Part shown: in pieces, positions 3,101-46,431 of the stretch
How positions within the stretch are numbered: position 1 is the first letter of the stretch
How the letters are laid out: each line of letters opens with the position of its first letter
Assembly: GCA_963402885.1 (NCBI GenBank)
Contig: OY727102.1
Coordinates: forward strand, 19,034,001-19,098,000
DNA from: Antedon bifida
Lineage: Eukaryota > Echinodermata > Crinoidea > Comatulida > Antedonidae
Length of the DNA: 64,000 nt
Reading direction: 5' to 3'
The notes under the pieces: generated by a model
Told to the model about the DNA's origin: nothing
What the model saw: only the letters and a program-made list of their open reading frames with translations
Database searches by the model: none
Made by a program: the position numbers and the translations under genes

Positions 3101-6100
3101 TTCAGATTCAGATTTTATTTGGTACTTATGAGATCCATGAAAAATAGATTGAAAGACACAGGCAATGATCCCGGTACCTCTAACATACTAAGTGAGCGCT
3201 CTACCATTTGAGCTAGTCCCCCCCAGTTACATATTTAACTGTTCAAAGATGAATAAATTATCGCCATATGCCCTATAGGATTTATTATATATTGAAAATA
3301 ATGCATAATAAGGGTCTTTAAATCTCTGTAACATTGATCAGCAGCATTCTGTTACAGTCATTCATGCATCTTCAACATCTTGGTGTTTGTTGCTTTTTTC
3401 ACATTATTATCATCATGTTCATCTGTATGGGTGTTGTTGCATGTTTGCCCAAACAGTTATGACGTTAATTTGTTTTCACCTTTAAACAGTTAAAAAGTTA
3501 AAGTCTAGGCTTGCCAGTTAGAGAACATTCAAGAGTGCATTCTCTTTTAAAACAAGGAATGACCTGGTTTCATGTTTCAAAATGCATTATTTTTACAAAT
3601 AAAATGGTCTTTACATTTGTTTTTGACAATCCGGAGTATAATAATATGCCATGTACATAGTGTTTAAAATGTATATGACCTAAAAATTTCATTTTCACAG
3701 TATTTTAAAAGTCTATACATTTCCTAAATTACATGAAAGTTATACTTTTATGAACAAAAATAATTATCGTAATTTCTATAATAAAATAATAAAAATAACG
3801 ACGTGATTTCAACAAAGCACTAATTCGCGTATGTAATGCGAGTTAAAGACGAATAAAGCATTTAAAATGTATTCATTGGGTGACATTTTGTAGCAATAAC
3901 ATTTCAACCATAACTAGTATGAGAATTTACGTTTCCCTGTTTATTTGGCCATGTCCATTTTTTGTAACAAGTGTTGCCGATATTCTTTGTTCTATCGAAG
4001 TAAAATTTACCCTCAAGGTTATTGTTGAAAACAACAAAACACTATTCAACTACCCAATAAAATGTAACGCTTGTTGTGGAAAAACCCATTTTTTTGTTTA
4101 ATTAACCAACTTTGATTAGTTATTGACTTGATATTTTTTTTTTGTAACATTTCACTTTACCTGATGATGTGCTATGCCCAAAACATGTTCTAAGGCGTTA
4201 AAACTTTGATTTTGATTTTATCTACAGTATTCATATACTCTGCCTATGCAGCTCTTTGATTTTTTAAATTTTCAATAATTTAACTTACTTCCGAGCATTT
4301 TAGGGCAAATTGTTGTATTAGACTAAATAGAAATGTATATGTTCCAAACAGTTTGACACCAAAAGTAACGCTATACGATAAATATTTCTTGAGATACCGT
4401 AAAAGATATATGAATAGGTCAGTAAGAGGTCAATAACCTCACTTTCGGTCATTTTGGGATAAAATATTTCATTACACCAAATAAAAATATGCATGTTCTG
4501 AACAATTTGGGCCTAATCACAATTCTCTATGATAAGCCATTACCGAGATATGATAAGACCAGGTCAAAGGTCAAACTGCCAGAAACTGCAGTAGCGACCA
4601 TTTTTTGACAAAATGTTCTGTTAGAGCAAATAGGAATGTATATATCGTGAACTATTTGACACCAAAATCAATACTCTACGACAAGCGGTTACAAAGTTAT
4701 AGACTAATTAAAATGGCAGCTATTTTGGACGCCATCTTGGATTTCTCGGAGAGCACAAGGAGGATTTTTCAGGACTTTTAATATGATGTTCCAATCATAA
4801 TTCTGGACCTTTTCTGAAAAAATTAGCTTGTTACCAGAAATGTCCGGGTCAAACCCTAATGCTCTTGGGCTATATACCTTGTTCTGTGAGATTCCACAAG
4901 CCAAAGCAATGTCTGAAATCCAATTTTCTACCGCCAATGTTGACTGTGGACTTCCAAAGCCTCTAAAAGCCGTATTTGAAGGTATATTCGTCCTGCAACA
5001 GTACCCATGCGCCTCTACATTCGGGATGTAGTACACATTCTGTACGTGGAACATGGCACGTTCCATCACCTGATTAAGAATTATAAATTGCGTTAACACG
5101 GTTTGTTTCAATTAATGGTAAGGTAATAAACAATACATGATGCACACTTTAGTTTGCCAACTTGAGCAAACTACGAGTTTTAGAAGAAAAATTTCAAAAT
5201 GTAGACGACCAGTTGACAAACTTTGATAATTGCTGAAAGCTATATTTTGCAGAGGCTATGTGTACCTTCTGGACAAAATAGTTTGCTGAGGTTTGTTAAT
5301 CAGTAACAGTCTTTGTGATCCCGATAAGAAAAAAATGATAATTTAAAACCATGTTTCTATGTAATAAATTAAATTAACCTGCAAAACATTCTCAAACATG
5401 AATTTGAATTTCAAAAAGGATCTCAATAGACTAACCTTTCCAATTTAAAAACTAAAAATATATAGAGTATTTTTTTAACCAATCGGTAAAACTACTAAAA
5501 GGTAAATTTCTGTTATCCTTGTGTTATAATAGTACAGTGATTTAACAGGCCAAAAGAAAATAAACTACTAAATGTATTTGATATTACTATTCACAAAGTT
5601 TTCAGCAAATTATATTTTCTAATTGCCCCTAGTAAGCTAATAAATAATTGTTCAGATATATTTTTCAATTTAAACGATCAAAATTAAAATCTTTAGGCCT
5701 ATCGCATAAAATAACAGGATAAAATTACAAGATATTATCTTTTGAAAAACATCACGCGAAACACAGAATACAGTACAAGTAAAAAAACTAAATAATGCTA
5801 TCAATGCATATTTACACTCAGTGATAAATCTTGAGAATGTCCGCAATTCATATACATATCAATTTTCAATGCTTGTATCTTTCCATCATTGGTAAACCCC
5901 ACTTTATAACGTGCAAGAAAGGCATGTCTGGTTCCCGTACTGGCCATGTCGTCGTTACGGTCTAGTACACAGCGTACTGGTCGTTTGCACCTTAAATAAA
6001 TCAAATTTGTTCACGATAAATAATAATATTCATAATATTATGCATTTGGCATGGAATGAAAAGTATGGACATTTTAGCCAACGATTTATTGTTGGATTTA

Positions 6101-14948: not shown

Positions 14949-17900
14949 GCGTTTTCATTCAAATGTCTGGTTCAGCATTTTAGAAAATGAAGATCGTCGA
15001 CGTCATACTTCTAAAGCGTAAGGGTCCCACTAGAACGCAAAGTGGTTTGATTTCACGCAGGCGGGGGAAACACAATTAAGCGTGGTTCCCACTAGCGACG
15101 TAAACGCAACGCAAGCGTTTTAACCAATGACAAGCGAAGTTATAGACAGTTAGCAATCACAAGCGAATAAGCCATCGCTTGTGATTGGTCAATTCACTTG
15201 CGTTGCGTTACGTCCTTGCGTTGCGTCGCTAGTGGGAACCACGCTTTATTGGAAGGACATTTTCTTACGTTGCGTAGATTGCGTCGCTAGTGGGAACCAA
15301 GCTTTATCTTACACAGTATAGCAATTCTTAAACACCCCGTCCCAGCACAACCATTGTACGCCACTGTACATAATAGTCACCTGGATATTTTATGCATAAT
15401 ATTAATACCTGGGGTCTTCTTTATCGTGTCTCTCAGGAATGTGTCGATTCGTGACAGTGTTACAGATGCTCCAATTCTTACACCTTCGTCATACAACTCA
15501 ATAATGTTTAATTCAGTCACGTGGGCAACCGAAACTGTTACGGGGTATATCATTTTTCTCTGTTGTATTTCAACTCCTAATATACAAAAATATCCGAATA
15601 TGCCAGTGTGAAATATGGATTTTAAGTGGGATTTTATACATTGTCTCTACATACTGTACAAACCTAGTAACAGAAATAAAATGTATTAAAACACCACATA
15701 CATCGAACCTATGATTGTCAGTATAGTCAGTACAATCAATGACATATGCAGAATTTGGCGTTTATTCGAAAACTTTTTTGGAATTTAAAAAACCATTTGA
15801 TACTAACCAACTTCCGTATTTCCTGCAACAATTTTTGCGTCTGGAAACCGTTTTCTCATATCTAGCATCTGTTGAAGATTTACGGGTCGTAACCATGTGA
15901 CGTCATTACACGTAAAGCGTACAGGCATTGGCTTTTCGTTTTCTATCATCTTGAGGAAATTGAAATGGAAACAAAACATGATTGAGAAGACGTCATACAT
16001 AATCTAAAGTGTGGTTCCCACTAGCGACGCAACGCACAGCGATGCATTGCGTATGCGTAATCACAAGTGGGAACCGACGACGCAACAGTGCTACAAACAT
16101 CGCAGGTTTGATTTCACGCAGGCAGGGGCAAACACAATTATTGGAAGGGCATTTTCTTACGTTACGTAGGTTGCGTTACGTTGCGTCGCTAGTGAGAACC
16201 AAGCTTTATACAATAAAGGTTTGATATTTACCAAAATAAGCTCTTGTGGAAACATGATATCTTTTGTAGAGTCATACGAGGTAAATTCGGATGGTTGAAA
16301 CAAAGTTGTTGAAATCTGTAAAAGAAAGCGTGTATATTGTTTTTATTTGCCGAACATTGTATAATCTTTTAAGGAAGTTAACCATCAAAGTTTGACCCAT
16401 GGATTAACCAAGTTTCTTCTTCTTCTTTGTGCAAAAAATGTGTAGAAGGAAAAAACATTTGTTAGATCTTATCTTATTCTAGAACTATTCGTTAACCATA
16501 ACACTAAACCAACCTTTAATATGGGATAGTTGTTTTGCTTATAAATAAGGGGTATTTTTACGTTCTAAAGCCGTTATCGTAATTCACATAGTAGGCCTAT
16601 AGAGTAATTGAACTCAATACATTACAAACCTACTAAACACGCCTTCATGGGCCAGAGTGTTATTGTAAGCAATATTATTACATTGCTGCTCCTTTAGGCA
16701 GTTATATTCAAAAGAATGGAAACATTAGGGAACAGTTACCATGCGGTAGCTTATCGTTTACTACGGCTGAAAAAAAATGGGTATTTGGAAACTCGAACTG
16801 GGCATGCGCACACCCCAAACCACGTCTGGTAAAAGAGAGTCTATGAAAATATTTGCTGATAAATATTGGGATGCATTTAGAAGGTAGTTATCGTTTTTTG
16901 TAAGAAAAATTTCTTTTTTTATATAATTACAGTTGTAACTTATCAATGATCACTTACTCCATTGATTCCACTGTTGGATTTACAGCTTTGTATTTTTCCA
17001 TTCGCACAGACTTTCTTGGATCCGTTTTTGTTCTGACAACATGTTGTTTTGCAATTCGTTTTGCATCCAATACCATTAATTTCTGATTCCTTCGGAATTA
17101 AAAACCTTAATGTGATTGCGACGTTATGAAATTAATGAAAACAATACAGTTACAAATTACAAAGGGCTTGGTTTAAAACAAAATATTATTAACGATAACA
17201 CACACTCATGAAGATTAGCATAAACAATAATTTTACAAACCGATTAAATCTATAAAGGTATTGTTCAGTCAGATTTTTGTTTGCAAATGACAATAAATGG
17301 AAGTAATTTCCCACAGATGAATGAACGAATGAAATATAGAGCAATACAAAAAACACTACAATGTTAACGCTCAGTGTTCATATGATTGATGATCTTATAT
17401 AGGATCATTGGTAGGGACAATTATTTATTCTAAAGAAAATATAAAATAAGAAAATTCGGTGTTGTGTAAAAATTGTAACAAATGAACAAAAGAACGAATT
17501 CCTTCTGTTTAAATAGGCAAACCAAACTATCACGTTATCAGCAATAGTCAAGTAGCGATATTTCGATTCCATTTTATTTTGTGACGATATTACCTTTGTA
17601 AAAGTTCTGTATCCCTCTAAGATTGGTCGGTAACCAGTACATCTGCATAAGTTGCCCTGAAAGGCGTCTTCAATGTCTGGCATGCACGGTCGATCGTTGT
17701 TTCTCAGGAGGGTGTACATAGACATGACGATGCCAGGGGTACAGAAGCCACACTGGGAACCATGTGCTTTTGCTATCCTTTCCTTTACATAAAACATGAA
17801 TTACATGTATGTATGATTAATTTAATGATACTGCTGTACTTTAAAACTTAGTCTAACAGTGAGAATGGGATCACTAGTAAATACACGTCCATCCTCCAGA

Positions 17901-20649: not shown

Positions 20650-22570
20650 TTTTTGGGATATTTAACTCGTCTAGTCTCGTCTACACATGAATGATTATGC
20701 TTGTGCTTAACGTATTATCTATCATAATGGTTTTCCAATGCGCTAATTCGTTGGCGGCGCTGTACTACAAACCAAATTCACAGCCTAGCCATACATGGCT
20801 CTGAACCAATTTACAATATTTGTTTTAAATATATTTTTTATGGTTACAATTTGTATCGTTGATAAGCCAATTTTTTATTGTTTGTTTATGTATAAAACAT
20901 CATTTTAATGCATTGTTTAAAGTCATGGGTATAGGACTTTACTTTACTAGAATACAATTTCTATAAATTAAGTATTTAGACCTTTTAACATTTTAACATA
21001 TTCTTATTATTGGTGTCAACTTATTTGTAAGAAGTAGAAAAAAAAGAAGAAAAAGAGTGGAAATAATAAAGGTGGGTTCACACGAAAGACAACAACAAAT
21101 ACAGACGTAAGAGATTCATATGGCGAGCCAAACAACTGTCTATTTAGAGAGAATGCTTGTTGTTTTAACTAGATATGTTTTTCTAGAACGATGTATTAAT
21201 CTAGAGAGATATTTAGTTTTAACTAGACAGATTAATCAGTTTTAACTAGAAAGTTTAGTTTGAACTATAGAGATGTCTTTACAGCTAGGCCTATATGCTA
21301 GAGATGTCTTTACAGCTAGGCCTATATGCTAGAAATGTCTTTACAGCTAGGCCTATATGCTAGCTTTGCTTATGTTACATTATGGCATGAGAAAAGAACA
21401 AAACAATACAAAAATGTTAAACATTTTACCTGCAAAAAACACTGAAATAGAGAGAGACCTAACTAAATGTGTTCGATCAACATTGAGTGAAGGAAGATTC
21501 TAAAGAATTCCAAAGTTTTGGACCATAACAAATAATGGAGTTTTAAAAGTATTTTTTTATGTTTCAAATAATTTTGGCAAATCTGATTTCATTATCATGG
21601 GGAACAGATGGTTGTTTTGAAGACAATAACAAAATATGTGCATGGTAATGATTTTTTTAAGCGCAGACATTATAAACATTATAAAACGGAGTGGAATTTC
21701 CCAAGCCAATCAGTGGCGCCAAAACACCACTCATATCTAATCTATGACATAATGTGTTGATGGTGGTTTTTGCTACTGGTGGCGGTCACTGTGAAAGGAC
21801 ACTATTTATAAATACGGACTTCTCTTCCACCTGTTTCATTACCATGGAAAACAGATGGTTTGGGGAACAAAACAAAATATGCGAATGATAATAAGTAATT
21901 TTTTAAGCGATAAAATAAAGTCTAAATATGCCTATTGTAATTTATTTAAATAAAAAATATTGAGAATATTGAATTCGTAAAATTGAATTGGTAGACCACC
22001 TTACCAGACAGATTATGATATCTTGAGATGCGGTATGTTAGTTTTATCAACGGAATTTAAGAAGAAATTAAATAAAAGTAGGCGGCCCCTACAAATCGAG
22101 ATTCAAAATAATTCGAGGAAAAACAATACCTTAAAAGATCAAAATTGGTTTTAAAAAATCTATCAGTAATACTGGAGTTAGGTTATGGAATTATAGTCTA
22201 CCTATAATTATTAAAAACTAAACAAAATTTCAAAAATAATACAAAGTACAAAATGCGGCGAGGATCGATTAGTCGGAAGGGATACAAACGCGGAGAAAGG
22301 ACAAGCACAATCATCATTGGTAATGATTTTATTATTTTTGTTAAGTTTAATTTTTAAAGTTTAGAAACACAAATTTAAAATAAATTGACCTAAAATAAAC
22401 AGTAGCGTAATGTGTATACAACAATTAATTCTGCTCAGTTGCGCCCCGTAGTATGTACTAATTTGTTGTCGTGGCGTAGTAAATTTGTGTGGTGCGCCAG
22501 ACAATCATTGCACATGCGCGATGCAGAAAAAATTGCAGAGAGAGCGTCGTTGTTCGAGCTAAGTATAGTG
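20650..22570. other. Intergenic region between divergent XDH and ODC
   Basis: No coding exon recognised. It holds the upstream region of XDH, AT-rich sequence, a triple ~35-bp tandem repeat (21263-21362, unit containing CTTTACAGCTAGGCCTATAT), and a diverged direct duplication of about 75 bp (21588-21662 and 21837-21911, sharing ACAGATGGTT and AACAAAATATG). Confidence 0.7.
21263..21362. repeat. Three-copy ~35-bp tandem repeat
   Basis: The unit GATGTCTTTACAGCTAGGCC plus TATATGCTAGA is present three times in direct order with one or two differences. Confidence 0.85.
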
Positions 22571-22581
22571 TGCGCATGCGC
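22571..22581 (+). promoter_or_regulatory. NRF-1-type site in the ODC promoter region
   Basis: TGCGCATGCGC is a perfect NRF-1 consensus palindrome, and a related CATGCGCGATGC lies at about 22511. It is 160 bp upstream of the inferred first ODC exon donor, in a locally CpG-richer stretch (22440-22640). A promoter here is an inference. Confidence 0.45.
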
Positions 22582-22681
22582 GGTGTAGTAATCCCACACA
22601 CAAATGAAGAGTAAACGCCTCGTGAATGAAATTCTTTTTAACGTTCCCCGCCATAGAATCGTGTTGAAGTAGTTTTTCCTC

Positions 22682-22781
22682 ATGAAGTTTCTTGATTTTT
22701 GTCGGTCTTTCGTAGAATAAAACCGCCAAAATTCCGCCTAAAAGCTTAATTCGGTTATCGTCTGCTGAAATTTCAGCCCAG
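22682..22781 (+). other. ODC1: Putative ODC 5' non-coding exon 1 (3' part)
   Basis: It ends in CAG at 22781 followed by donor GTATGT. The upstream boundary is unknown. It contains a 12-codon AUG ORF (22682-22720, MKFLDFCRSFVE) if transcription starts far enough upstream. It also contains the first 17 codons of the non-AUG uORF. The link to ODC is inferred from position and from uninterrupted frame into the next exon. Confidence 0.5.
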
Positions 22782-23780
22782 GTATGTGAAATATATTATT
22801 TTTTTCAATAAAACATGAATACTTGTGTAGGCCTACTGACTAGCTAGGAAGGAGATGGCTATCTACGCAAGCGACCCGGCATGATGTCAATATGGAGCAT
22901 GTGGTGTGTGTTGTGCAATGCAATACAATACATGATGTACATATTGTTAGTGCCTCTGCCAAGTTCGATTCCTCGTGATTATGAAATCATACATTAATGT
23001 AAAACCAAAGTTGTTTTGAATCTTATATTTAGTTTAGGCTACAATTTTTAAATTAATATTTTGTTTCTAGCTAGCATTTCAAATCTTGCACGTACTGTAA
23101 TTGACTCAGAATCAGGAAAAGGAATGTATGATTAAAAATATAATTTATAAATATAGGCCTAGATTCATTCATTTCATCATAATAAAATTAAATATATGAA
23201 ATTTGTTTGCTAGGCCTAAAAATAAAATGATAATTAAAATTATAGAAGATATAGGCCTATTTCGATTATTTTTTTGTCTTTACATAATATAAACAGCTTG
23301 TTTTTTTTAACGTTAAAACATTGTCTTTTAGAATTTTTTTTAAAAGCCCTTTTCCTTCCATATTTTTTTTTTCTTTTATGTAATAACTTTTTGTTTCTGC
23401 CCTTAGTGCTTGGGTAATAAATATTAGTCCTAATGGCCACTTCTATGTACTCAAGATCTCTTACATTTACCTGCAACTCCTATACCATAAATAAATGAGC
23501 AAATGAGTTTTTTTTAAATAATTAATACTCGATACGTGAATTTCAGTTGAGTACAGTATTTGATACAAAATAGAGTTTATGTTTAAATGAAGAAATAATT
23601 TTCTTTTTTATTCTCCATTTCAATCAAGATCTCTTTGATTTAGGGTTGTGGCATTATTTTAATGAAAACAAAATTGTTTGCTTCTAGGGCGGGCATTGTA
23701 ACATCTACTGGGCTGTAGAACCAGAAGGAGCAACTGGGGTTGTGGACATCAACTTTGAACCAGAGTGGGACCCTAGCTGA
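22731..23780 (+). CDS. Candidate conserved non-AUG (AUU) uORF of ODC, spliced
   Basis: Joining 22731-22781 to 23688-23780 gives 47 codons and a stop, with no AUG in this frame. In-frame AUU codons are at 22731 (context GCCAAAAUUC, A at -3), 22746+3 and nearby. The peptide ends YWAVEPEGATGVVDINFE followed by PEWDPS, a protein-like composition with Trp-rich ends. Conserved AUG-less uORFs with AUU starts are known in mRNAs of ODC homologues, notably antizyme inhibitor, where a C-terminal PPW motif and polyamine-dependent stalling regulate the main ORF. The EPEW near the end here could be the counterpart. This is based on recall, not alignment. Confidence 0.55.
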
Positions 23781-23815
23781 TATTTGCTAAAGGGTCAGAT
23801 TTTTCACTTTGCAGT
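23688..23815 (+). other. ODC1: Putative ODC 5' non-coding exon 2
   Basis: 128 bp between acceptor TTGCTTCTAG and donor GTAAGT. One frame is open for 30 codons and ends at TGA (23778-23780). The next acceptor, TTATTTTGCAG at 24508, opens the exon that carries the ODC start codon. Confidence 0.6.
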
Positions 23816-24210
23816 GTAAGTATAGCAATTAGTATTATAGTGCAAAAAATCTAAATCACAATTGTGTTAAAAAAAACCGAAGTATATATACTTAAACATC
23901 AACATCATTTTTTTTGTTGGGGTTTTTTAACCGCATACAAAGTTGTGCCTAATTGATAAATATTTTATATTCTGTATTTTATGACAAGCAAGACATTTTA
24001 TTTGTTTTCAGATTTTATTTAGTCTCTATATTCTCACTAAGATTAAGGAGTTATTGCATTTGGACACCTAGCACTTAGTTGTATGATAATTAAAAATAAT
24101 ATATATTGCCCACCTGCAAAGATTGTTAATGCCTGCTAGCAGGTAGATTTCCATATGAAGACATGGAATTTTGAACTTGCAAATGAAATAGCACAGTGCC
24201 ATTTCACATA

Positions 24211-24415
24211 GGTCAACTACTTACCGTATGATGACTGTCAACTACAGACCATATCATGACTGTCAACTACAGACCATATCATGACTGTCAACTACAGACC
24301 ATATCATGACTGTCATCTACTGTCCATATCATGATGGTCATCTACTGACCATTTCATGACAGTCAACTACTGATCATGAAGGTCAACTATTGATCATATC
24401 ATGATGGTAAACTTT
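24211..24415. repeat. ~25-bp minisatellite in the ODC 5' UTR intron
   Basis: About eight direct copies of a unit like ATCATGACTGTCAACTACAG plus ACCAT. The first four are nearly identical and later ones diverge. It lies 90-300 bp upstream of the ODC start-codon exon. Confidence 0.9.
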
Positions 24416-24591
24416 GTCTCGCAAATAAATTGATGTTTACCATGTCGCCAGTTAATTTAAAAGATCATAAACGTTGATAATTTATTGTCATTTTTGTTTA
24501 TTTTGCAGGCTTTTGCGTATTAGCTAGTAGGCCCTATTATCTGTAACTGTGTTTAGCCGTTGTGTGCATTTATTGTGAATTTAGTGTAATA

Positions 24592-27500
24592 ATGGACTTA
24601 ACCACTGCATCATTTTCAATCAAGACTCACGATAGTCGTAAAACTATTCGCCAAATAGTCAGTGAAATGGTTCACAACCATGATGACAGAGAGGTAAATA
24701 ATTTGCACTTTGGGCCATGTTTCCACAGCCAAAAATTAACCGATAAACTGCCTGTCGAAAAAAATTCTTAAAATCTTATTCAAATCAGATAATTATCGGA
24801 TAAATGCGATGTTTGACCTGAAAGGCAAATTGTTGTGTTGTCATTGGGCATCTGGTTGTTTGGTAATGACTGATCATGCGCACATTATTGGTTAACAAAT
24901 TAATTTTGTTCGGCTGCGGAAACACGGCCTTGTATATAACAAGTAAAAGACATTAAAGATGTATTGTTTGCTAACTTAACATTAAATCTACTTCTGTATT
25001 TTAATGTTTTTAGGACCAAGATGATCCTTTTTTCATCTGTGACATGGGTGATGTCATTAAAAAATTTACCCGCTGGAAGAGACTTCTTCCTCGGGTAGAG
25101 CCACATTATGGTAAATTACTATATTGTTTTTCTTTTAATTCATATAAAATTAAATTGAATGGGTTATTGCTTACTAATCATTTATATATGTATATTTATA
25201 CATTGCAATTAATTTTGTACCTCATGCCTAATTGCTTATGGTTACATGCTTATTTTGTATTCCATTGTATTAATTTATTATTTATTTTGTTCGATTTTGA
25301 TATAAAAATGTCAATGACACGAATAGTAGCTGCTGACGTAAATGTAGATTATCGCCATATAATGAGTTCTGGCTTCATAAAATTGTTTTTAGTCATCATT
25401 ATTATTTTATTAGTTATTCATGTTCTATTTGTTTGTTTTTTTAGCTGTGAAATGTAACCCAGATCCTGCGGTTCTGGCCACACTAGCAGCACTTGGAACT
25501 GGATTTGACTGTGCCAGCAAGGTAATAGTCACAGTGCCATAAATATTTCATAGATTATTCAGTCGTCTGCATGAGTAGGAGCCAATGGTTTTAGTCATAA
25601 AAAGATGATCAAACCATGATTGTGCTTACAGTAGCGTTGATGATAGATTTGACTTGCCCTAACTGCTATTCTATGATGATAAAGTCTAACAGTACTCAAA
25701 TCTTTTCTGAGCCACACACAATATCATTAAACTTAAGATATACATAAGATTCAAGTCATCTCGGAAACTTTCGGTAAAACTTTGTTAACTCTAGACAAGT
25801 TGTTTAGCAAACTTTTGATCTGATCCCCATTTCTTACTTGTTAAATCGTATTCGTGTTGATAAATATCGCCAGTCTTTGCACATTTTACATTGAATCGGG
25901 AATGAGTACATGTGTGACGTATCCGTTATTGTATTTGTAGCGTTGCGAAACCTACCTAATAATTAAATTACATTGTGTTCCATGTTGAAACATTTTTCAC
26001 TACAAAATATTTATCGTCGACACAAAATAATTTTATTTTTAGAATGAAATTAAAACTATGCTGGAGTTGAGCGTGTCTCCATCGCGCATCATCTTCGCAA
26101 ACCCTTGCAAGCAGAAATCTCATCTAAAGTACGCTTGTGACACCAACGTTTCGATGATGACCTTTGACAATGAAGACGAGCTGCATAAGATCAAGAGGGT
26201 GTTTCCAGCGGCAAGGTACGTTCTTTATGAATTACGTGGTCCTTGCCAATTTTTCTTTTCACTAGACCACTGTAGATTTCAATAATAGCCTGACAAAAAG
26301 TAAATGACACTTTGAAATTAATTTAGTAATGCATCTCTAGTGGGAACCAAGCTTCAGTGTTTGAGCTGTGATGAGATATTTGACTTGCCCTATCTGTATT
26401 TTGTTGATGATAAAGTCACAAATGTACTCAAATATCTAGCTGAGCCAAGACATAAATTATTAATTCAATTTGAATTATTTAAGACAAAAAATGTTGACAT
26501 GCATTAATAATGCTGATGTGTGTTTTTTCTTGCAGATTAGTGCTTCGCATTTTAACTGACGACACTACAGCTCAATGCCAGCTAGGCCTAAAATATGGCT
26601 GCCACCCTAAGCATGCTCGCTATCTACTACAGGTTGCCATGCAGCTTGATCTCAATGTTATTGGCGTCAGGTAAAGTATTTGTTTTCTTTCGTATTCAGT
26701 TATATAGAAATATTTATAACTGAAAAATAAATAATAATTATTTATTATAATTTTATATATAAAATTAAAAATTTGAATATTATTTAATAGTACCACATTT
26801 ATATTGGATTCAGTAGTCATTTATTTATCTTTCTTTGGCGTTTGAGCTGTGATGATATATTTGACTTGCCCTATCTGATTTAATTGAAGATAAAGTCATA
26901 AATGTACTCATAATTTATCTGAGCCAAACAAACTAGATAATTAGTACGCTCTATGCTGTTAAAATGATTGGTGTTATGGTTCTATTTTAGCCTTGAAATT
27001 GATGACAATTTTAGTTCACACATTATGCAATTTTTGCAGCTCATGGCCATATCTGTGGAACCATGAAGCAGAATGTTGTCTCTTTATTCAATATTAGGCC
27101 AGCATATATATGATTTTCCATTTGTATTTTTCCTCAATTTGCTCCTTCATTTTGTCGGTGTAGAAAAACTAAATTGTACTCATTTCCCGTTTTTATTACA
27201 GCTTTCACGTTGGCAGTGGCTGTCGCGATTCTAGTGCTTACACAAAAGCAATTGCATCAGCTCGTGAAATATTTGATATCGCTGATTACATGGGTTACCG
27301 CATGGATTTGCTAGACATTGGCGGTGGATTTCCAGGTCAAGCAAGTGCTCCAATTGCTTTTGAAGAGGTACTACAGGTTTTATTATTTAAAGAAATGGTA
27401 CACAATGCATGCGGACTATCAATATTAATATTATCTGACTGCAACAGAAATAGGTCTAAAAAATACATTATAAAATAGGTGTATGACGAAACATGTATTA

Positions 27501-30500
27501 AAATGTGGCCAGCTTAAATTTTGCAAGTTTTGGTTGTGTTTAGGAGGCGAAAGCTCAACTAAAATATTTGCAAAAATGTTCCTTATTACTAAATTTATCC
27601 CCACATAAATAAACGTTTTACTAACACCTATCTTTATCTTTTAAAATGAAAACTATAATGGAATAATTTAATTCAACAGTTTGCAGACGTAATCAACTGT
27701 GCCTTGGACGAGTATTTTCCTAAAGACTGCGGAGTCCGTGTCATCGCTGAGCCAGGACGTTACTTTGTGGCGTCTGCTTTCACTCTTGCTGTGAACGTCA
27801 CTGCTAAGCGTATTGTGGCCCGTGACATCAAAACATTTGAAGTGCCTGAATCAAAAGGTATGGCTTTTAAGATAATGATCAAAATCATTCTTTTTTATTT
27901 GACTGTTTAAAACTAGGCTTGCAGATTATGCAACAGTTAAGGAGTGGGAATCATGCATAAAATAATTTTAATTTGTCCCATTCTTAGAATCTAAAGCTCT
28001 GTCTACACTATCAAACTAGTTTGACAAAAAAGTGTGATGTGCCTGAATATGGTAGTGATATGCTCAAATATAGTCCTGATATGACATCATCATACCCATA
28101 TATGGGCACATCACACTTGTTGTCACATCAAGTTTGATAGTGTAGACAGAGCTTAAGAACATTAGATAATGAATAATACATTTATGAAATCCAGATCTTT
28201 AAATGTGTCTGCATGTTACTATACCCTTGTTTGTGCAATGATGAGATATTTGACTTGCCCTATCTGATATGATTGATGATAAAGTCACAAATGTACTCAA
28301 TATCTAACTGAGCCAAACAAAGCCAAATTAACACCCGATACTTGCTTAGAACTCTCCTACCGATGCCAGACAATTTGGTTCGAATCTATGATGCCAGAAC
28401 TACACAACAGAACTTTTTGTTTAGGTAGTGCTTTTTATGATAATGTTATGTCAAGCTTGTGAACAGGGTTGATGCTGCCTTGAAATGGACACTGAATGAT
28501 AAATAATCATTGTGTGGTTGGTTTTTTCCAGACCTTGTTTCTAACACTGTTGCGCCACACAAATGCGAAGAACCTGCTTACATGTACTATGTGAACGATG
28601 GCGTATACGGCTCTTTCAACTGTCTACTCTACGATCACGCAGCTGTTGAACCAATCACTTTAACTGTAAGTTTAGAAAGAAATGAATATTTATGAGTTGA
28701 AAGATAATGTTCATAAAACTATTCTCTCCCTTCAATATGGAAGATTCATTATTTGCTGTTTTAAACTGTTATTAAATTAATCCACTAATTCTATCTTGAA
28801 TCAATTTTAAAGAAGGGGGCTAATCAATTTTTTTATTAAGGCAGCGTTCCGATTTAGCCGTAGAGTAGAACAGTTATAGATGGAACAAATTACAGATTGG
28901 TTTTTGAATGCACCAGCCCCTCACAAAATTCTGAACATTTGTTTTTGCAATAGAACCACCAATTAAAACAGGTGGACTAAAATGGCATGATACCAATTTA
29001 ACCAATTAAAGTTACTATTGGTTACATTATGTTGCAATATATAAAAAAAAAAATAAACAGCCACATTGTTTTATTAATTCAAGTGCTTGATAATGATAAT
29101 ACATTTATAGTTGAAGTGTAAATATTTTATGCAATAAGCATTTGCTGAGTGGTTTGAAGTGTCTATCTGAAACTTAATGCCAGACTGGAAAGTTCATGCA
29201 ACCTTTTTCAGTGGTTTGACCCAATTCTTGCATAGAAATTGAAAATTGATCTGTCTACACTTAGATCAAACTAGTTTGACAACAAAATACGATGTGCCCA
29301 AATATGGTATTGGTATGCCCAAATGTGGTAGTGATATAACATGATTATTTCCTTATATGGGCACATCAAATGTTTTTGTCACATAAACTTTGATAGTGTA
29401 GACAGAGCTTTAACTATCTTTGAATATTCCTTAATAATGTGTTATTTTAAAGGATCTATATTAGATTGATATTTTAGAATCTTGGATATAAAAGTGAATA
29501 TTTATGTAGTACCACAGTTCTTGGGTGGACACGTGGCATTTTTCTTGCGTTTAGAATTATTTCGTGATTTTTTCAGGATCATACTGATGAGCTAGAATAC
29601 TCCACTAGCATCTGGGGTCCGTCTTGTGATGGCATTGACAGAATCATCGAGCACACTACTATGGCTGAGCTTCAGGTTGGCGAATGGATTATATTCAAAG
29701 GTAAGAACATTATATTTGTAGTTATTACTTTCACCCTCTCCACAAAGGCAGGCTGGTAGATATGTTTACCAGTCTGCAATACAAGAGGGAAGAGTAACCT
29801 GGCCTGATTCCACTCACGACCCATACGCTACCACAGGGAAGTGAACTAAAGCAGGCCTACAGAAATGTTGTTGTTTTTACATTGTATTTGTTATTATGTA
29901 CCACTGTTTCAATAGGTGATTCATGTTTGTCATGGCTGTTAATATATATACAAGATCTTTGCACCCACAATATACAGTTATCATTATCATGTTTTGTTAT
30001 TTATTTTTTTAGATATGGGAGCTTACACCGTGTGTGCGGGGTCGGAGTTCAATGGTTTCAAGCGGCCTGTATTGTATTATGTCCTCCCAAATAAGTTGAG
30101 GTAAGCAACATGTCAAAGTTCATGCACCATTTATTCTTTCACCCTCTCCACAAAGGCAGGCTGGTAGATATGTTTACCAGTCTGCAATACAAGAGGGAAG
30201 AGTAACCTGTCCTGATTCCACTCACGACCCATACGCTACCACAGGGAAGTGAACTAAAGCAGGCCTACAAATTATGTGTACAATTTTTCTGTATAGAGCT
30301 ATAAGATAAGATGTTTCAAAATGTTTAAATAACTCAGAAACATTGGTGGAATTTATACGGTCAACTCTACCAATATTGGACACCTTTAGGCTGGCCAAAT
30401 ATGTCTGGTTTTCAGCAAAGTCTGGTATGCAGAATGTGTTTTTAATGGTAAACTAGTTAATGTTAACACTATTGCTCAAATACTTGTACACTAGCACACA

Positions 30501-31014
30501 TGGCAATATGTTCAGACCTCCAAATAATCTATATTTCTAGTGATCTGTCTCCCAGCCCACTAAAGATGCAATTTCTCACAATTGTCATTGTTTTGGATAT
30601 ACAAAAAAATCCCAATAATATTGTAAGTACATTGGTATGTCACACAGAAATTGCCCGACATACCCATTGTACACAATAGTTTTTAATAGTGCCCTCTATA
30701 GTTTTTGTCCACACTTTACAATGTCTTGTCATTGGTCGACTTGGTTGTGTGGGACTCTGGTGGGAACCACATTGATTTATTTTGTCTTTGTTTTGGAGAG
30801 CAATAATTACAAACGAAAATTTATTGTCATTATTTTCTAAAACAGAGCGTCAATGCAGAAGATGTTACAACAAGAAAACAAGGAGTTTGCCAAGAAACAA
30901 GCCATCAAGTACCACGAACGCCTCACAGAGGACGGCGACGAGGGCGGCATTAGCTTTGCTTTCGAGGATGAATGCCTTTTATGCCAATCGCCTACCAATC
31001 ATATTAGGGCCTAA
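24592..31014 (+). CDS. ODC1: Ornithine decarboxylase, complete, 11 coding exons
   Basis: PLP enzyme converting ornithine to putrescine, the first committed step of polyamine synthesis. It is a cytosolic homodimer. Exons: 24592-24693, 25014-25110, 25445-25521, 26043-26215, 26536-26670, 27202-27367, 27680-27857, 28532-28665, 29577-29700, 30013-30100, 30846-31014. They give 480 aa in unbroken phase. Residue numbering matches the mammalian enzyme up to 332: Lys69 in AVKC (PLP), His197 in FHVGSG, Gly235-237 in GGGFPG, Glu274 in AEPGRY, Asp332. The catalytic Cys in GPSCDG is at 371 (360 in human) and the active-site Tyr in GAYT at 400, so there is a ~11-residue insertion between. All catalytic residues are present, so it is an enzyme and not antizyme inhibitor. 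The ATG follows an in-frame stretch lacking an earlier ATG. The introns host six snoRNA candidates. Confidence 0.97.
25631..25715 (+). ncRNA. Box C/D snoRNA candidate, ODC intron 3
   Basis: Homologous to three other intronic copies. Box C-like UUGAUGA, the guide GATTTGACTTGCCCTA before a degenerate D' (CUGC), C' AUGAUGA, and box D CUGA before GCCAC. A short imperfect terminal stem (GTAGC/GCCAC) can form. It is the most diverged copy. The guide could pair with AGGGCAAGUC of 18S rRNA. Confidence 0.65.
26334..26356. repeat. Terminal fragment of a family 2 MITE
   Basis: CTAGTGGGAACCAAGCT is the right terminus of the family 2 MITEs, preceded by GCATCT. No left end is seen, so it is a solo end or a heavily decayed copy. 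Confidence 0.6.
26359..26449 (+). ncRNA. Box C/D snoRNA candidate, ODC intron 4
   Basis: Box C GUGAUGA, guide ATATTTGACTTGCCCTAT followed by D' CUGU, C' UGAUGA, box D CUGA, with terminal bases GTTTG/CCAAG partly paired. 91 nt, within a 320-bp intron. The guide has ten bases complementary to the 18S rRNA segment AGGGCAAGUC. Confidence 0.78.
26840..26929 (+). ncRNA. Box C/D snoRNA candidate, ODC intron 5
   Basis: Terminal stem GTTTG/CAAAC is perfect. Box C GUGAUGA, guide TTTGACTTGCCCTAT then D' CUGA, C' reduced to UGAAGA, box D CUGA. 90 nt. Same guide as the intron 4 and 7 copies. Confidence 0.8.
27995..28153. mobile_element. MITE family 1, full-length copy
   Basis: 159 bp. AGCTCTGTCTACACTATCAA ... 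its perfect inverse, flanked by TAA on both sides. Internal repeats of AAATATGGTAGTGATATG and a GGGCACATCACAC segment are partly self-complementary. It lies in ODC intron 7. Confidence 0.92.
28229..28318 (+). ncRNA. Box C/D snoRNA candidate, ODC intron 7
   Basis: The most canonical copy: terminal stem GTTTG/CAAAC, box C AUGAUGA, guide ATTTGACTTGCCCTAT, D' CUGA, C' UGAUGA, box D CUGA. 90 nt. Confidence 0.85.
29249..29409. mobile_element. MITE family 1 copy
   Basis: About 161 bp. CTGTCTACAC ... TAGTGTAGACAGAGCT with the usual AAATATGGTA interior. The left few bases have decayed. It lies in ODC intron 8. Confidence 0.85.
29731..29864 (+). ncRNA. Box H/ACA snoRNA candidate, ODC intron 9
   Basis: 134 nt with two hairpins. 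The first pairs CCCTCT with AGAGGG, has internal loops on both sides, and is capped by a stem pairing CTGGTA with TACCAG. A hinge with H box AGAGUA follows. The second hairpin has a basal stem GGCCTG/CAGGCC and an upper stem CACT/AGTG. Box ACA lies exactly three nucleotides before the predicted end. Internal loops are the expected pseudouridylation pockets. From memory, human ODC1 also hosts an H/ACA snoRNA (SNORA80B). Confidence 0.82.
30139..30272 (+). ncRNA. Box H/ACA snoRNA candidate, ODC intron 10 (paralogue)
   Basis: Nearly identical to the intron 9 copy across all 134 nt, while flanking intron sequence is unrelated. H box AGAGUA and terminal ACA are kept. One change (GGCCTG to GTCCTG) weakens the second basal stem by one pair. 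Confidence 0.8.
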
Positions 31015-33810: not shown

Positions 33811-36800
33811 ATGTCTTCACCAGTTTGTACCTATTTTTCACCCCCAGCTTCACCCTCAGGAAGACTGTTTATTGATGTAAGTTTATTGTATTTTCTAGGC
33901 CTAGGCGGCTAGGTTAGGCCCAAAGTTAGGGTTAAGCCTAGGCTAGGTAGGCCCTGCTGGTCCTTCCTAGGCTAGGTAGGTGGTAGTGGCTACTAGTACT
34001 AGGCCTAGGCCTAAGAGTAGTAGTACTAAACTAGCCTAGTAGGTAGGTAGGTCATGCACCTAAGCCTACCAGAGTCTAGAGAGCGGCCTGTCAAACAAAA
34101 CAAAGAGGTACCAGGAGGGACTGTTGTTGTATACAGCCTGCCTGCCTGGGCCTAGAGGCTAGGAATCTTGTAAGTAGGCCAATTATGACAATAAATATGC
34201 CATCAATAATGAGTAAAACTTAACATATTTTATTTTAATTAGTCTTCGTGACTTTTTTTAATAATTTATATTATTTTATAAACAATTGTTTAAAACAAAA
34301 TATTATAAATAATAAATTATTACAATTTAATTAATATCTTTCAGTTACTTTAAAAATTTGTTTTAATTTATCATAATCATCCTGGAAAATTGCTTGATTC
34401 CTCGTTGCACAATGCATGATAGGAGCAAAGGTCATGATGTGCGTACGTACAAACAACAAATCACATATACGTTGTGATGTTTGCTCCAAAATCCTTCCCA
34501 CCATGTGCCGTGCATGCTATTTGCGATAAACCTTATGGCTTTCATTCAAGTTATCTATTTTGTGCTGCATAGCCTTGGTGGTGCCATATAGTACTGTCCA
34601 TGCCACACTATAAATTTAAAACTAAAGTGCAACAAAAAATAAGAAGTGTAAAACTAAAGCACAAACTTAAATTTAATTTCTAACAGATCTTAAACGTTAA
34701 TATATAATTATCAAACTTTAATTATTTTTAACAAAAATCTTCATAACCAAATATTCGATATTAATTTATAAGAAATTTTACTGCCTAGTTATTATTATTG
34801 CATAATCAATATTAGAAAGAATGATGTCATCATCATTATATTTGATATTATCATGCAGTCAATTCATGCTCAACAACAATTCAATGCCATTGACCTCATT
34901 GCGACCTTATGAATAATGACAAGGATGAGAGAGGAGGCATGCCCTTTGTTGACAATAACAAGCATTCTGCTGAAGGTGTGAGTAATCCTGTGTTCTGATT
35001 GGTTGGACAATTTGACAAATCGGAAGCTTGTCTGTAACCATTCAGTGAAGGTGTGATCATAAGCTTACAAAGTACACAGTGTAATGCAATAATTTCTATA
35101 GTACATATGGCTTAACCATGATTGTAAAATATATTATAAATAAATTATATTATAATACTGTGTGCCAGTGACACTGACTGCGACTATGTTATACTGTAAT
35201 TTGTTGTGAATTGTAAAAATTAGTAGAAAAGTCCAGTACATAATCATAGGTATCAATAATTATTTTTAGAAAATATTTACATTACAATACAAGAAATATA
35301 ACAATACTACTATATCATGTTTCAATTGTTCTTGTAAAAGTGGTAATTCCAATTCTATTAATAAATCTGAAGTCATATTTCTTTTTGTTCAAATTCACTA
35401 CAGTTAAAAAGGAAATGTCTGTATTATTAAATATTGACAATACATGAACAATCATACAGTGCTTGAATTTAACTCTATGGTAATACTGTTATTATATTTC
35501 TATACTATTCTACAGTACCAAATAAAAATAGTATTTTAAAAGTTTCAATACAGTAATATTATATATTTTTAGTTAGACTATAAATGTATTCTCGTTTTTT
35601 TGTAAACAGGATAGTGATTGCTGCAGTAATATTAATTTGGAAGAGTCCCGTAAGGCAGAATCTCCCGCTAAACGGTCAAAGATAGAACGGTCAGCTGTAG
35701 AGACACTTTTGTCTTTCAACAAAATGGAAAAACAACAGAAACCTGATTACTCGATGAATTATCCAGCCTCTCCAGAGAGTTTGCCATCAGAAGATTCTTG
35801 CCAAGATTGTCAGCAAAACAGGCAGAAAACATCAACGTCACAGGTAAACTAGATTAACAGTCTCTTGTTTTCAGGTTGAAGCCATTTATTGTTTAATGAA
35901 AATTATATGTACAATAGGCATGTGTCCAAGATTTTGCAAAGAATAATGATGGTCATGTGATCAGATCCTATAAAAATGGAGTTTATTTGACATGTGTAAT
36001 AGATAAATCTTCCAAGAAGAATTTGTTATTATAGTTTACAAAAAAGATTAATTTTTGGCATTTATAAAATTTATATAAGATATATTGATAAATTTTTATG
36101 TATTAATAATAATTTGTATTAATTACGTTTATAGTAAAAAAAATAGCTCTGTAACCAAATAATTGTTTTTAATCAGGGTCTTGAAACGCCTCCATTGACA
36201 CCACCACCAAAGTCAAATTTGCCGATTTTCTCATCACTGTCATTTCGAAATCTGCCCAGCAATAAGGCCGTCTTCACATCAACAAATGTCATGTCAACTT
36301 TTATCAATAACGACTGCAATCTCGTAAAAGCCACGCCAAGCCTTATGTCCAGTTCAGTGTCTCCGAGTGCGCTGGTCACACATGTGCCGTCATGCCCACA
36401 ACCACTCAGTGTAGCATCATCACCTCCAAACAGTCCAATATCTAGCAAGGTAGTTGACAAACCTGTTTCAAGTAATTTTGCTAGTTCTACTACACATATG
36501 AACAATCACGTACCAGTAATAAAGGCAGTTCCATCGCATCATTCAACAGAAAAGACTGTCTCTTCAGAAAATGGTCACAATTGTGAAAATCGAGCACCCG
36601 TTACTACTGTTGCATATACCACAGTGGGTTGCAGTACCGCAGCCAGAACAAGCACGCTGCACACTGTAAACGTTACCACAACTGATGGGACAAACCGGGC
36701 AATACTACCCACAATGAAAGCTATTCTCTTGCCTGGGAACTTTATTTTGCCTTCAAACGTTGTGTTTGTTATGAACAATCCTAAGACGGACTCGGGTCCA

Positions 36801-37478
36801 CCTAAAATGTGCCCTTTGGCGCCCGCCCCTTCAGTCAACAACCCGACAACAACAAGACCTATCTCACCGTCAACGGGAGCGGAGACGTTGCGTCGCAGGA
36901 ATCATATTTGCAGTTATGACGGATGCGGGAAAACGTATTTCAAAAGCTCACATCTCAAGGCGCATATCAGGACACATACAGGTAAGTTTATGTATTCAAT
37001 TTATTTATGAATTCATTTATCAAATCTTATTCATTAATGCTTTTTGTTTTTGTTCTCATCCATATGTAACTATTTTTTTATTTATTCATTAGCGGCCCCC
37101 AATAGTCCTCTTTCGATTGAAGAGGTATGTTACCCAGGCAATCCACGCAGAATAGTTGTTCCCTCTTTGCAAATATCCTTCTAACTTCTAAAGTGTAATC
37201 ATCATTATCTTTCAGGTGAGAAGCCATTTGAATGTACATGGGAAGCCTGTGATAAACGTTTTGCCAGATCAGACGAATTATCTCGGCACAGACGAACTCA
37301 CACCGGTGAGAAGAAATTTGAATGCCCGATCTGTTCCCGTCGATTCATGCGTAGCGACCACCTGACGAAGCATGCACGTCGTCACATGACAGCAAAGAAG
37401 ATCCCAAATTGGCAGTTAGAGGTGACACGGCTAACAGATATGGCGGAACAGAAGGCTATGATTGTACAACAAGTATAG
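33811..37478 (+). CDS. Krüppel-like factor of the KLF10/KLF11 (TIEG) type
   Basis: Nuclear GC/GT-box-binding repressor. Exons 33811-33876, 35610-35843, 36177-36981, 37216-37478 give 455 aa. Three C-terminal C2H2 fingers lie at about residues 343-367, 375-397 and 405-427 ([49 protein letters not shown]) with TGEKPF and TGEKKF linkers, ending [12 protein letters not shown] as in vertebrate KLF10/11. Exon 2 has [16 protein letters not shown], matching the Sin3-interacting AVEALMSMS helix of that subfamily. TPPLTPPP and a Ser/Thr/Pro-rich middle follow. The subfamily call is firm, but the KLF10 versus KLF11 split is vertebrate-specific. The finger region is split by an intron after finger 1. Confidence 0.95.
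33880..34180. repeat. CTAGGCCTAGG-rich tract
   Basis: Dense, irregular AGGCCTAGGC/CTAGGTAGG words in the first KLF intron. Comparable tracts lie at 45950-46140 and 46240-46265 next to the PSMA4 start and at 54170-54190 next to DEK. Low complexity, no coding potential. Confidence 0.6.
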
Positions 37479-38967
37479 TATATTGTATATAAATTGCAGA
37501 CAGTCTAAGCATCAGCTAAGTTTGTTAGAATAGTACAGTAGGAGCTTCTACATGTAAATAGCATGTACAATAATATCAGTTTTACTGTACATTACATTAT
37601 TTGTGATTTCTTCTTTTTTGTATTGTTAAACCACATCGTTCATATTGGTATTGTTACTTAATATGAAAACCCCCCACTTTTCATAAAGAAAAGAAAAACA
37701 TTGTTTTATGTAGAAAAAGTCACAAAAAATTAATTGTAAAATAATTGTATTTTAATTATGATTTATGAAAGGTATTATTGAAGAGATAAGGTTATTATAA
37801 TCAGTAATAGTTGTGCAATATTGGAATAGGGAGTTCATCCATTTTTATAATATATTTGAGTCTAGTTTACAAATGCCTGGGTTTTTAAAAGATAAATTTA
37901 TTATTGAATACATATTTATTCAAACACCGCATGTGGAAAGCTCATCAAAGTTTTGTTTTGATTGCATTTGACCTTTTTATTTGACCTTTTTACACAGAAT
38001 CTGCATATTCTTTGAAATTTGCCTTTTTTCACAAGTTACATATAAAAAAACACCATACAAAAAATGGGTAAAATAGATACATAACAGTATGTTCAAATGT
38101 TAAAAATCACATAGTCATACTGTAATCATAAAATGGGTAATATTATTTTATAACTGCATATAAAATGAAGATAGAAAATGCAACAGGTAACAGTATAAAC
38201 CTGCATATTATTAATAACTCAAGTTTTTTTCACTCTAGCAAATGTCATACCATTTTACATACTAGCCCTGTTTTATATGCCATGTTCATAGTGAAATGTT
38301 GCCAGCAACATTTCCATTTGACCTTGATTGATGGCATTATTTTGAACAGCTAATATTATTGGCAGTGACTGGATGTTATCTGATTAACCTAATTATTATA
38401 AGGTCTCTTAATTTAAATTTTTCTCAAATCTACTAGTCACTTTCAAAGTCACCTTCAAAATTCCTAACAGTGAGTTTAGCACCAATAAATATACATGAAA
38501 TTGAAATATTGTCCTATTTAGCACCAATAAGTATGACATTGAAATATTCTCCTATACTCCTCACACTTTGCAATGTGTATTTTTTCCATACATTAAAAAA
38601 AAAGTATCAAAATTCCATTAAATAAAACGCATTAATTGTCAACTCAGGGTTAAATGATCTCTTTTGATATTTCACCCGCTTTCATTAATATTGTTAAGTA
38701 TTGCACAGTATGGTGCTGTATATTTGTACTGGTATACAGTGTACAGCATAGTGTTGTTTTATATTGGTATCTGTATGCTGCTTTTTTTTTACCACACCCT
38801 ACTATATGTTACCCTATAGTGTATTTTGTAAGTTTTTTCATCAAAAGTGTATTAATTTGTTGGGAGGTCAGTGCATGTTAAAATTTGTGATAGAAAGCCA
38901 GATTGTTATGTTAATGTTAATGTATTTAAAATTTGTACTGTTTTAAAGGTGTTTCAAAATATATTAA

Positions 38968-45300: not shown

Positions 45301-46431
45301 ATTCTCAATGTAGTTTTTTATTCTTCTATTGCCATACTTATTGTTAATGTTTTGTTATTGTTTTGTTTTTTTGGCAATAAAAGGAAAAAAAAAGAAAATA
45401 AAAGAAAAAGAAAAAAACAGGTCATACTTGTCTAGTTTATAAATTTTTTCTGAGAATACGACCTCATCAAGTAGTTTGTGCGTGTTCCTTCTCTCTGCAG
45501 CAAGTACTACACCGTCACTAGCCAAGATCCCTAAACAGGTACCGGCATGTCCTATAGCTTCCATTGCGTATTCTACCTGGTATAATCGACCTGTAACATT
45601 ACAATTTATATAAAATCTTTTCTGGTAAATGGTGGCTATTTTAACATTATTGTATTTGACATATTAACATATTATTGGAATAGGTATAGTTAGTACTAGA
45701 AAATATTTGTTAAAATATATAAGAAAACAATTCAATTTGAATCTTTAATTTGTAGTAATAGCTTTGTAGTATCTGTACTTCCAACGTTGGTAAAACAAGT
45801 AGTTGCAATCATGGTTTTTAAGGACCAAGAAGTATTCATTCACTTACCTTCTGGTGAGAAGATGGTCGTTCTTGAATCATAACGCCGAGACTTGATAAAA
45901 AAAAACAGAATTTATAATTTATTCATTCCTTTCTTAAAGAAGAATATGAGGCTAGCTAGATAGGGCCTTCTACTACTAGGCCTACTAGTACTAGGTAGGC
46001 CGGCCCTACTACTCTAGCTAGGCTAGGGCCAGGCCCTACTAGTACTAGGCCTAGCTAGCTAGATAGTAATACTGATAGTGATTACTGATACTGATTGATA
46101 GGCTAGCTAGGCCCTCTAGCTAGCCTAGTAGAGGAATTAATTTTTTTAAATAAACTGGGTCAGCATAAACTGTTACTTTCCACACCTATAAATGTTTACT
46201 GGTGATTTATCTCAAGTTATGTTGTTTTGCATCACAAGGCCAGGCCTAGGCCCTAGTTAGGCCTATTTCTACCGATCTTATAGCCGGTCATATCTGTTGT
46301 GTGCGGCTACCGCAACATGTGTGGAACAGTCAGAATGAGAAAGGCCTAACATTTTTTTGCAAGAATCGTATAAACAATTACTTTCTGAGTTTCATCTTTA
46401 CATACATTATAAACTTACCATATTTCAGATC
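42332..46431 (-). CDS. PSMA4: Proteasome subunit alpha type-4
   Basis: Alpha-ring subunit of the 20S proteasome. Exons in order: 46429-46431 (ATG only), 45848-45890, 45428-45590, 45067-45144, 44666-44754, 43861-43991, 43098-43221, 42332-42483. They give 260 aa (human 261). The N-terminus [20 protein letters not shown] is the alpha-subunit gate signature, and the core [29 protein letters not shown] and [19 protein letters not shown] are almost identical to mammals. The C-terminus is a Lys/Glu-rich helix ending KEKEKKEKK. The codon split at the last junction gives Phe where human has Val ([12 protein letters not shown]). An intron directly follows the start codon. Confidence 0.97.
42627..42935 (+). 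mobile_element. tRNA-derived SINE in PSMA4 intron 7
   Basis: Head with a Ser/Leu-tRNA-like box A (ATGGTCGAGCGGTTAAGGC). It is followed by a body with CGGATGGGGACTATAAACTG and GTAGGGGTTACCCCAGTG, landmarks I recall from invertebrate SINE2 families. Opposite to the gene. Confidence 0.65.
43739..43839. mobile_element. MITE family 1 copy
   Basis: 101 bp, shortest intact copy. AGCTCTGTTTACAC ... GTGTAGACAGAGCT, flanked by TAA on both sides, ending 21 bp before the donor edge of PSMA4 exon 6. Confidence 0.88.
45213..45285. repeat. Repeat with TTTATATAGCGCC ... TCTAAGCGCT core
   Basis: GATTTATATAGCGCCTAATG and CCTCTAAGCGCTGAACATTA form the short core I recall as common in marine invertebrate interspersed repeats. 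It lies in PSMA4 intron 3. Confidence 0.5.

Follow-up and report, generated by a model that had tools for sequence, protein, structure and literature searches.

A putative AUG-less uORF with a candidate polyamine-sensing tail in the leader of a crinoid ornithine decarboxylase gene

Could the ornithine decarboxylase (ODC) gene of a crinoid be repressed by polyamines through a uORF in its own 5′ leader, as is described for the antizyme inhibitor of vertebrates? The question is raised by a window of Antedon bifida DNA, the whole 64,000-nucleotide stretch that was analysed, in which an AUG-less frame of 47 codons had been predicted ahead of an ODC gene. On re-reading the sequence, the predicted coordinates were correct (TAG at 22713, AUU at 22731, exon joint 22781/23688 and TGA at 23778–23780), and the frame was recovered on the spliced sequence. 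It holds no AUG, and joins IPPKSLIRLSSAEISAQ from exon 1 to GGHCNIYWAVEPEGATGVVDINFEPEWDPS and the stop from exon 2. Translation of the spliced leader gives IPPKSLIRLSSAEISAQGGHCNIYWAVEPEGATGVVDINFEPEWDPS as the peptide of 47 sense codons from the AUU, which lies 15 nt past the in-frame TAG; counted from the TAG, the stop-free frame is 52 codons long. The first leader intron is bordered by CAG/GTATGT (donor after 22781) and CTAG/GG (acceptor before 23688), and since its last three bases are themselves an in-frame TAG, the exon 2 frame is open upstream only if this intron is spliced out. From the uORF stop to the ODC AUG the predicted spliced leader measures 118 nt (23781–23815 plus 24509–24591). 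At the sequence level, the position and the splice signals fit the 5′ leader of an ODC homologue, and in a broad sense the frame has the features of AUG-less uORFs of such homologues, namely no in-frame AUG, an AUU near the 5′ end, and 47 codons against about 50 in the vertebrate antizyme inhibitor. The features are collected in Table 1.

Table 1. Positions in the window of the ODC leader, the uORF and the neighbouring genes
Feature	Position	Strand	Basis or remark
Palindrome TGCGCATGCGC, presumed NRF1-like promoter element	22571..22581	.	sequence
In-frame TAG closing the uORF frame on its 5′ side	22713..22715	+	sequence
AUU, first near-cognate codon of the frame after the TAG	22731..22733	+	context gccaaaAUUC
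uORF exon 1 part, 17 codons, IPPKSLIRLSSAEISAQ	22731..22781	+	splicing 22781 to 23688
Leader intron 1, phase 0	22782..23687	+	donor rank 1/103, acceptor rank 5/89
uORF exon 2 part, 30 codons and TGA, GGHCNIYWAVEPEGATGVVDINFEPEWDPS-stop	23688..23780	+	frame, GC, codon score
Tail P-E-W-D-P-S-stop, proposed polyamine-sensitive stall site	23760..23780	+	motif as given in a passage of PMC10855120
Leader intron 2	23816..24508	+	donor rank 8/103, acceptor rank 1/89
Final leader part, without AUG	24509..24591	+	sequence
ODC coding sequence, 11 exons, 480 aa, complete, stop included	24592..31014	+	exon assembly
KLF10-like zinc-finger gene, partial model, three exons, linkage marker	35610..37479	+	downstream of ODC, same strand

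The first point to settle is the nature of the downstream gene, which the original prediction had named ODC. Its product is identical to the ODC of Antedon mediterranea at 464 of 480 residues (97%) with no gap, which lends independent support to the exon model and to the start. Among the best 120 of 7594 matches this protein is the closest, followed by that of Anneissia japonica at 81%. Antedon being a comatulid crinoid, this places the window in a feather star. Of the solved structures, the top match was ornithine decarboxylase 2on3 (487.6 bits), with 1d7k, labelled human ODC, at 487.2 bits, and an antizyme inhibitor 1 structure scored lower, at 366.3 bits. In the alignment the protein keeps the segments common to human ODC, including (S/T)CDG, which we take to be the catalytic ones; the main ORF thus looks like that of an ODC with these segments, and not like the catalytically inactive main ORF of the AZIN1 type. 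Judged on its sequence, then, the gene is a genuine ODC, as predicted. When its own genome (315.6 Mb in 27 contigs) was searched exon by exon, all 11 matches of the ODC protein fell inside this one gene, and no second ODC/AZIN gene was found at E up to 1, with 10 candidates scored in a search that could miss a distant paralogue. A separate antizyme inhibitor was, as a result, not detected.

Elsewhere in the window, two exons upstream of ODC on the opposite strand (4707–5111 and 17408–17800) carry the Pfam domains MoCoBD_1 and Fer2_2, a combination that suggests a molybdopterin/2Fe-2S enzyme of the xanthine dehydrogenase or aldehyde oxidase type. A proteasome alpha subunit is represented by an exon at 45358–45663 (Pfam Proteasome), also on the minus strand. 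Within the second leader intron, a tandem array of about eight copies of a 25-base unit occupies 24211–24413.

One account of the frame is chance: exon 2 would be an ordinary untranslated leader exon, and its open frame and tail a coincidence. The open length by itself agrees with this: when the 393-nt spliced leader was dinucleotide-shuffled 2000 times, 1083 of the products held a stop-free run of at least 52 codons, and length was therefore dropped as evidence for the uORF. The exon 1 part agrees with it too, since the score of its 17 codons was reached by 2604 of 7726 stop-free shuffles, and a coding signal in this half was rejected. The leader is, however, unusually poor in AUGs. From 22716 to the ODC AUG there is none in any frame across 277 nt; only 1 of 2000 shuffles was equally free of them, against a shuffle mean of 4.96. 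Exon 2 speaks against coincidence as well. Through the TGA its GC content is 52.7%, higher than in all 1824 overlapping 93-nt stretches from introns of the ODC locus (maximum 51.6%), and after the TGA it falls to 34.3%. Its codon score in the uORF frame, from training on the ODC gene at hand against its own introns, and so on a one-gene set, was 0.395, a value that none of 1264 overlapping stop-free intronic stretches reached (maximum 0.208), while the remaining five frames of the same DNA scored at most 0.003. Among 20000 shuffles, 4720 were stop-free and 15 of these attained the score. The score is a weak classifier, which the chance account can claim in its favour, since only 21 of the 45 windows taken from ODC rise above the highest intron score, and 4 of 45 reach 0.395. 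The coding signal of exon 2 in the uORF frame is thus modest evidence.

A 2024 paper gives the tail of the AZIN1 uORF as PPWxxPS-stop (in a passage of PMC10855120), and the yeast HOL1 uORF also ends in PS-stop (passages of PMC10855120 and PMC11550727). Stop codons in all six frames of the window were compared with the five fixed residues of PPWx(1–3)PS-stop, with a spacer of one to three residues. Four of the five residues were present at 1 of 8672 stop codons, which is the stop of the uORF; all five were present at none and three at 8. With the comparison confined to the 4680 stop codons preceded by at least 8 open codons, the four-residue match was still unique. This relaxed form of the motif was picked after the tail had been seen, again a point in favour of coincidence, and it is broad, yet the match remains unique, and it sits in the leader of the very gene family known for such tails. 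Taking these observations with those on AUGs and codons, we regard chance as quite unlikely.

The tail departs from the strict AZIN1 motif in two places: the second P is an E, and a single residue, not two, forms the spacer. The HOL1-type Pro-Ser-stop ending is present. The published texts differ in where they put the AZIN1 stall. It is placed at PPW in passages of several of them (including PMC9082881, PMC11058473 and PMC11550727), whereas one sentence of PMC10855120 treats the AZIN1 uORF itself as a PS-stop uORF whose termination is inhibited by polyamines. Dependence on polyamines and eIF5A is described for both the PPW and the PS-stop stalls (in parts of PMC9082881, PMC11058473, PMC11550727 and PMC10855120, among others). 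A second alternative follows from the altered PPW: the uORF could be translated and repress ODC either at all times or by way of a general control through stress or scanning, with no sensing of polyamines, the sensor having been lost as PPW became PEW. Whilst PPW, the stall motif reported for AZIN1 in portions of PMC9082881 and PMC11058473, is indeed not intact, the remainder of the tail stays close to the published motif, and PS-stop, at which termination is polyamine-sensitive in yeast HOL1 (according to passages of PMC11550727 and PMC10855120), is retained, and we consider this alternative unlikely. Because the diproline of PPW is absent here, PS-stop would be the likelier sensor in this uORF.

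It is possible that transcription starts downstream of the palindrome TGCGCATGCGC, a presumed NRF1-like promoter element. Short AUG uORFs with starts at 22604, 22626 and 22682 (ends 22672, 22667 and 22720) lie 5′ of the AUU, so a transcription start upstream of 22604 would place at least three of them before it. The AUU had been credited with a good context, which holds for the A at −3; at +4 there is a C and not a G, and this counts against use of the AUU because non-AUG initiation is reported to depend critically on G at +4 (a review, PMC9082881, in the relevant passage). By analogy, a weak AUU start would fit the queueing model of AZIN1, in which the stall boosts initiation at the upstream AUU (as outlined in passages of PMC9082881 and PMC11058473). 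Immediately 3′ of the AUU, the second and third uORF codons (22734–22739) encode Pro-Pro, a diproline that could itself require eIF5A.

Splice sites were scored after training on the ten coding introns of ODC. Of 103 candidate donors and 89 candidate acceptors in the leader, donor 22781 and acceptor 24509 each rank first, and the two sites flanking exon 2 are middling (acceptor 23688 fifth, donor 23815 eighth). These ranks make skipping of exon 2 a real possibility, by which the tail would be removed: 22731–22781 joined to 24509–24591 gives a 21-codon frame, IPPKSLIRLSSAEISAQAFAY followed by a stop. Alternative splicing might then be the switch, with inclusion of exon 2 yielding a repressed mRNA and skipping a free one. 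The skipping pair unites the top donor and the top acceptor of the leader, and the frame that results has lost the tail, but such a switch is compatible with a stall uORF and does not exclude it; as the explanation of the locus we consider it very improbable.

We consider it likely that a polyamine-sensing stall uORF like those of AZIN1 and HOL1 acts here on ODC itself. Support for this comes from the tail, the AUG depletion, the codon signal of exon 2, the drop in GC after the stop, the completeness of the ODC gene, the AZIN1-like architecture, the single ODC gene and the linkage to KLF10 considered below; against it stand the unmatched strict motif, the lack of a coding signal in exon 1, the weak codon classifier, the unremarkable open length, the middling splice sites, the C at +4 and, should transcription begin 5′ of 22604, the short AUG uORFs ahead of the AUU. 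The transcript structure, its translation, the start codon, the stall with its dependence on eIF5A and polyamines, and a shared origin with the uORF of AZIN1 are all inferred. Most scanning ribosomes would pass the weak AUU, meet no AUG and arrive at the ODC start, and those translating the uORF would pause at its end, at PEW-D-P-S-stop. High polyamines would hinder eIF5A and slow termination at PS-stop, and perhaps elongation at PEW too. A queue of ribosomes could then extend back to the AUU some 140 nt upstream and raise initiation on the uORF, and ODC synthesis would drop as that initiation rises. The original prediction had taken the frame for an invertebrate version of the AUG-less ODC uORF with EPEW in the stall position. 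The architecture and the genuine ODC support this in part, and PEW belongs to the tail; EPEW alone is an incomplete reading, which overlooked PS-stop, the known element that is intact.

How does this frame compare with known systems? AUG-less uORFs of ODC homologues, from yeast to mammals, were reportedly described by Ivanov, Loughran and Atkins in 2008, and the crinoid frame resembles them as a non-AUG uORF 5′ of an ODC homologue. On account of that report the kind is counted as known; the finding would add a further animal group to it and not establish a new system. The MAGDIS uORF of AdoMetDC (the gene we take to be AMD1) is similar in its polyamine-dependent stall at the uORF stop of a polyamine-synthesis mRNA, as excerpts describe it, but is an unrelated hexapeptide with an M start. 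Another similar system is the upstream conserved coding region (uCC) of vertebrate AZIN1, which in the relevant passages of PMC4458265 has about 50 codons, an AUU near its 5′ end and no AUG, and loses polyamine repression when either the AUU or its final 10 codons are mutated. The crinoid frame shares with it the ODC-family leader, the length, the lack of AUG and the AUU, and also a Trp and Pro-Ser-stop at the C-terminus (compare the passage in PMC10855120). It differs in that the gene encodes a catalytic ODC and not an inhibitor, in having PEW-D-PS-stop for PPWxxPS-stop, and in that its function is a predicted one. The HOL1 uORF of Saccharomyces (MLLLPS-stop) has the same Pro-Ser-stop end, at which eIF5A-dependent termination suffers when polyamine is high (passages of PMC11550727 and PMC10855120), but is six codons long as written there, starts with M and belongs to a polyamine transporter gene, against 47 codons and an AUU in the crinoid.

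Searches for relatives of the frame itself were negative. Predicted proteins contained no candidate homologue of the 47-residue peptide with three common 5-residue words, which counts against the uORF, though an AUG-less frame of 47 codons would rarely be predicted as a protein. Searched against the same genome, the exon 2 peptide matched the window itself and nowhere else, and no Rfam family reached its gathering score in 22300–24700. An echinoderm or crinoid ODC uORF was named in no title or abstract start among the papers listed in a literature search that is weak on subscription papers, from which absence from print is not implied.

The evolutionary setting is suggested by the KLF10-like gene downstream. 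Ten named species were present both among the 120 listed ODC matches and among the 120 listed KLF matches, some of the KLF10-like proteins being unnamed by their source. Among the matches listed, the longest contig was of equal size for the two genes in nine of the ten (Antedon mediterranea, Anneissia, Patiria, Acanthaster, Asterias, Ptychodera, Saccoglossus, Glandiceps and Branchiostoma lanceolatum), which is an indirect sign of one contig; the contigs concerned are mostly large. In Diadema the sizes differed. Thus, ODC–KLF10 linkage appears to be kept in nine of the ten deuterostome invertebrates compared, among the matches listed. Human KLF10 and KLF11 presumably lie beside AZIN1 and ODC1. 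AZIN1 is placed at 8q22.3 and ODC1 at 2p25 (in a passage of PMC6585022). The linkage and the human positions fit an ODC–KLF10 locus that carried the uORF before duplication, the uORF being later retained on the AZIN1 side.

We tentatively propose, as a history that is possible rather than probable, that the AZIN1 uCC predates the ODC/AZIN duplication. In crinoids, where AZIN was undetected, it would sit on the single KLF10-linked ODC and hold the enzyme itself in check; polyamines would be sensed through failed termination at PS-stop, with PPW dispensable. After the vertebrate duplications the inhibitor gene would have kept the uCC, and ODC1 would have taken other controls. Because this natural tail lacks the diproline, it could show cleanly whether PS-stop is enough on its own for sensing in an animal uORF. 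If the proposal is true, direct stall-peptide feedback on ODC would be ancestral in deuterostomes, and the vertebrate feedback on antizyme inhibitor would be a later partition of ancestral ODC control.
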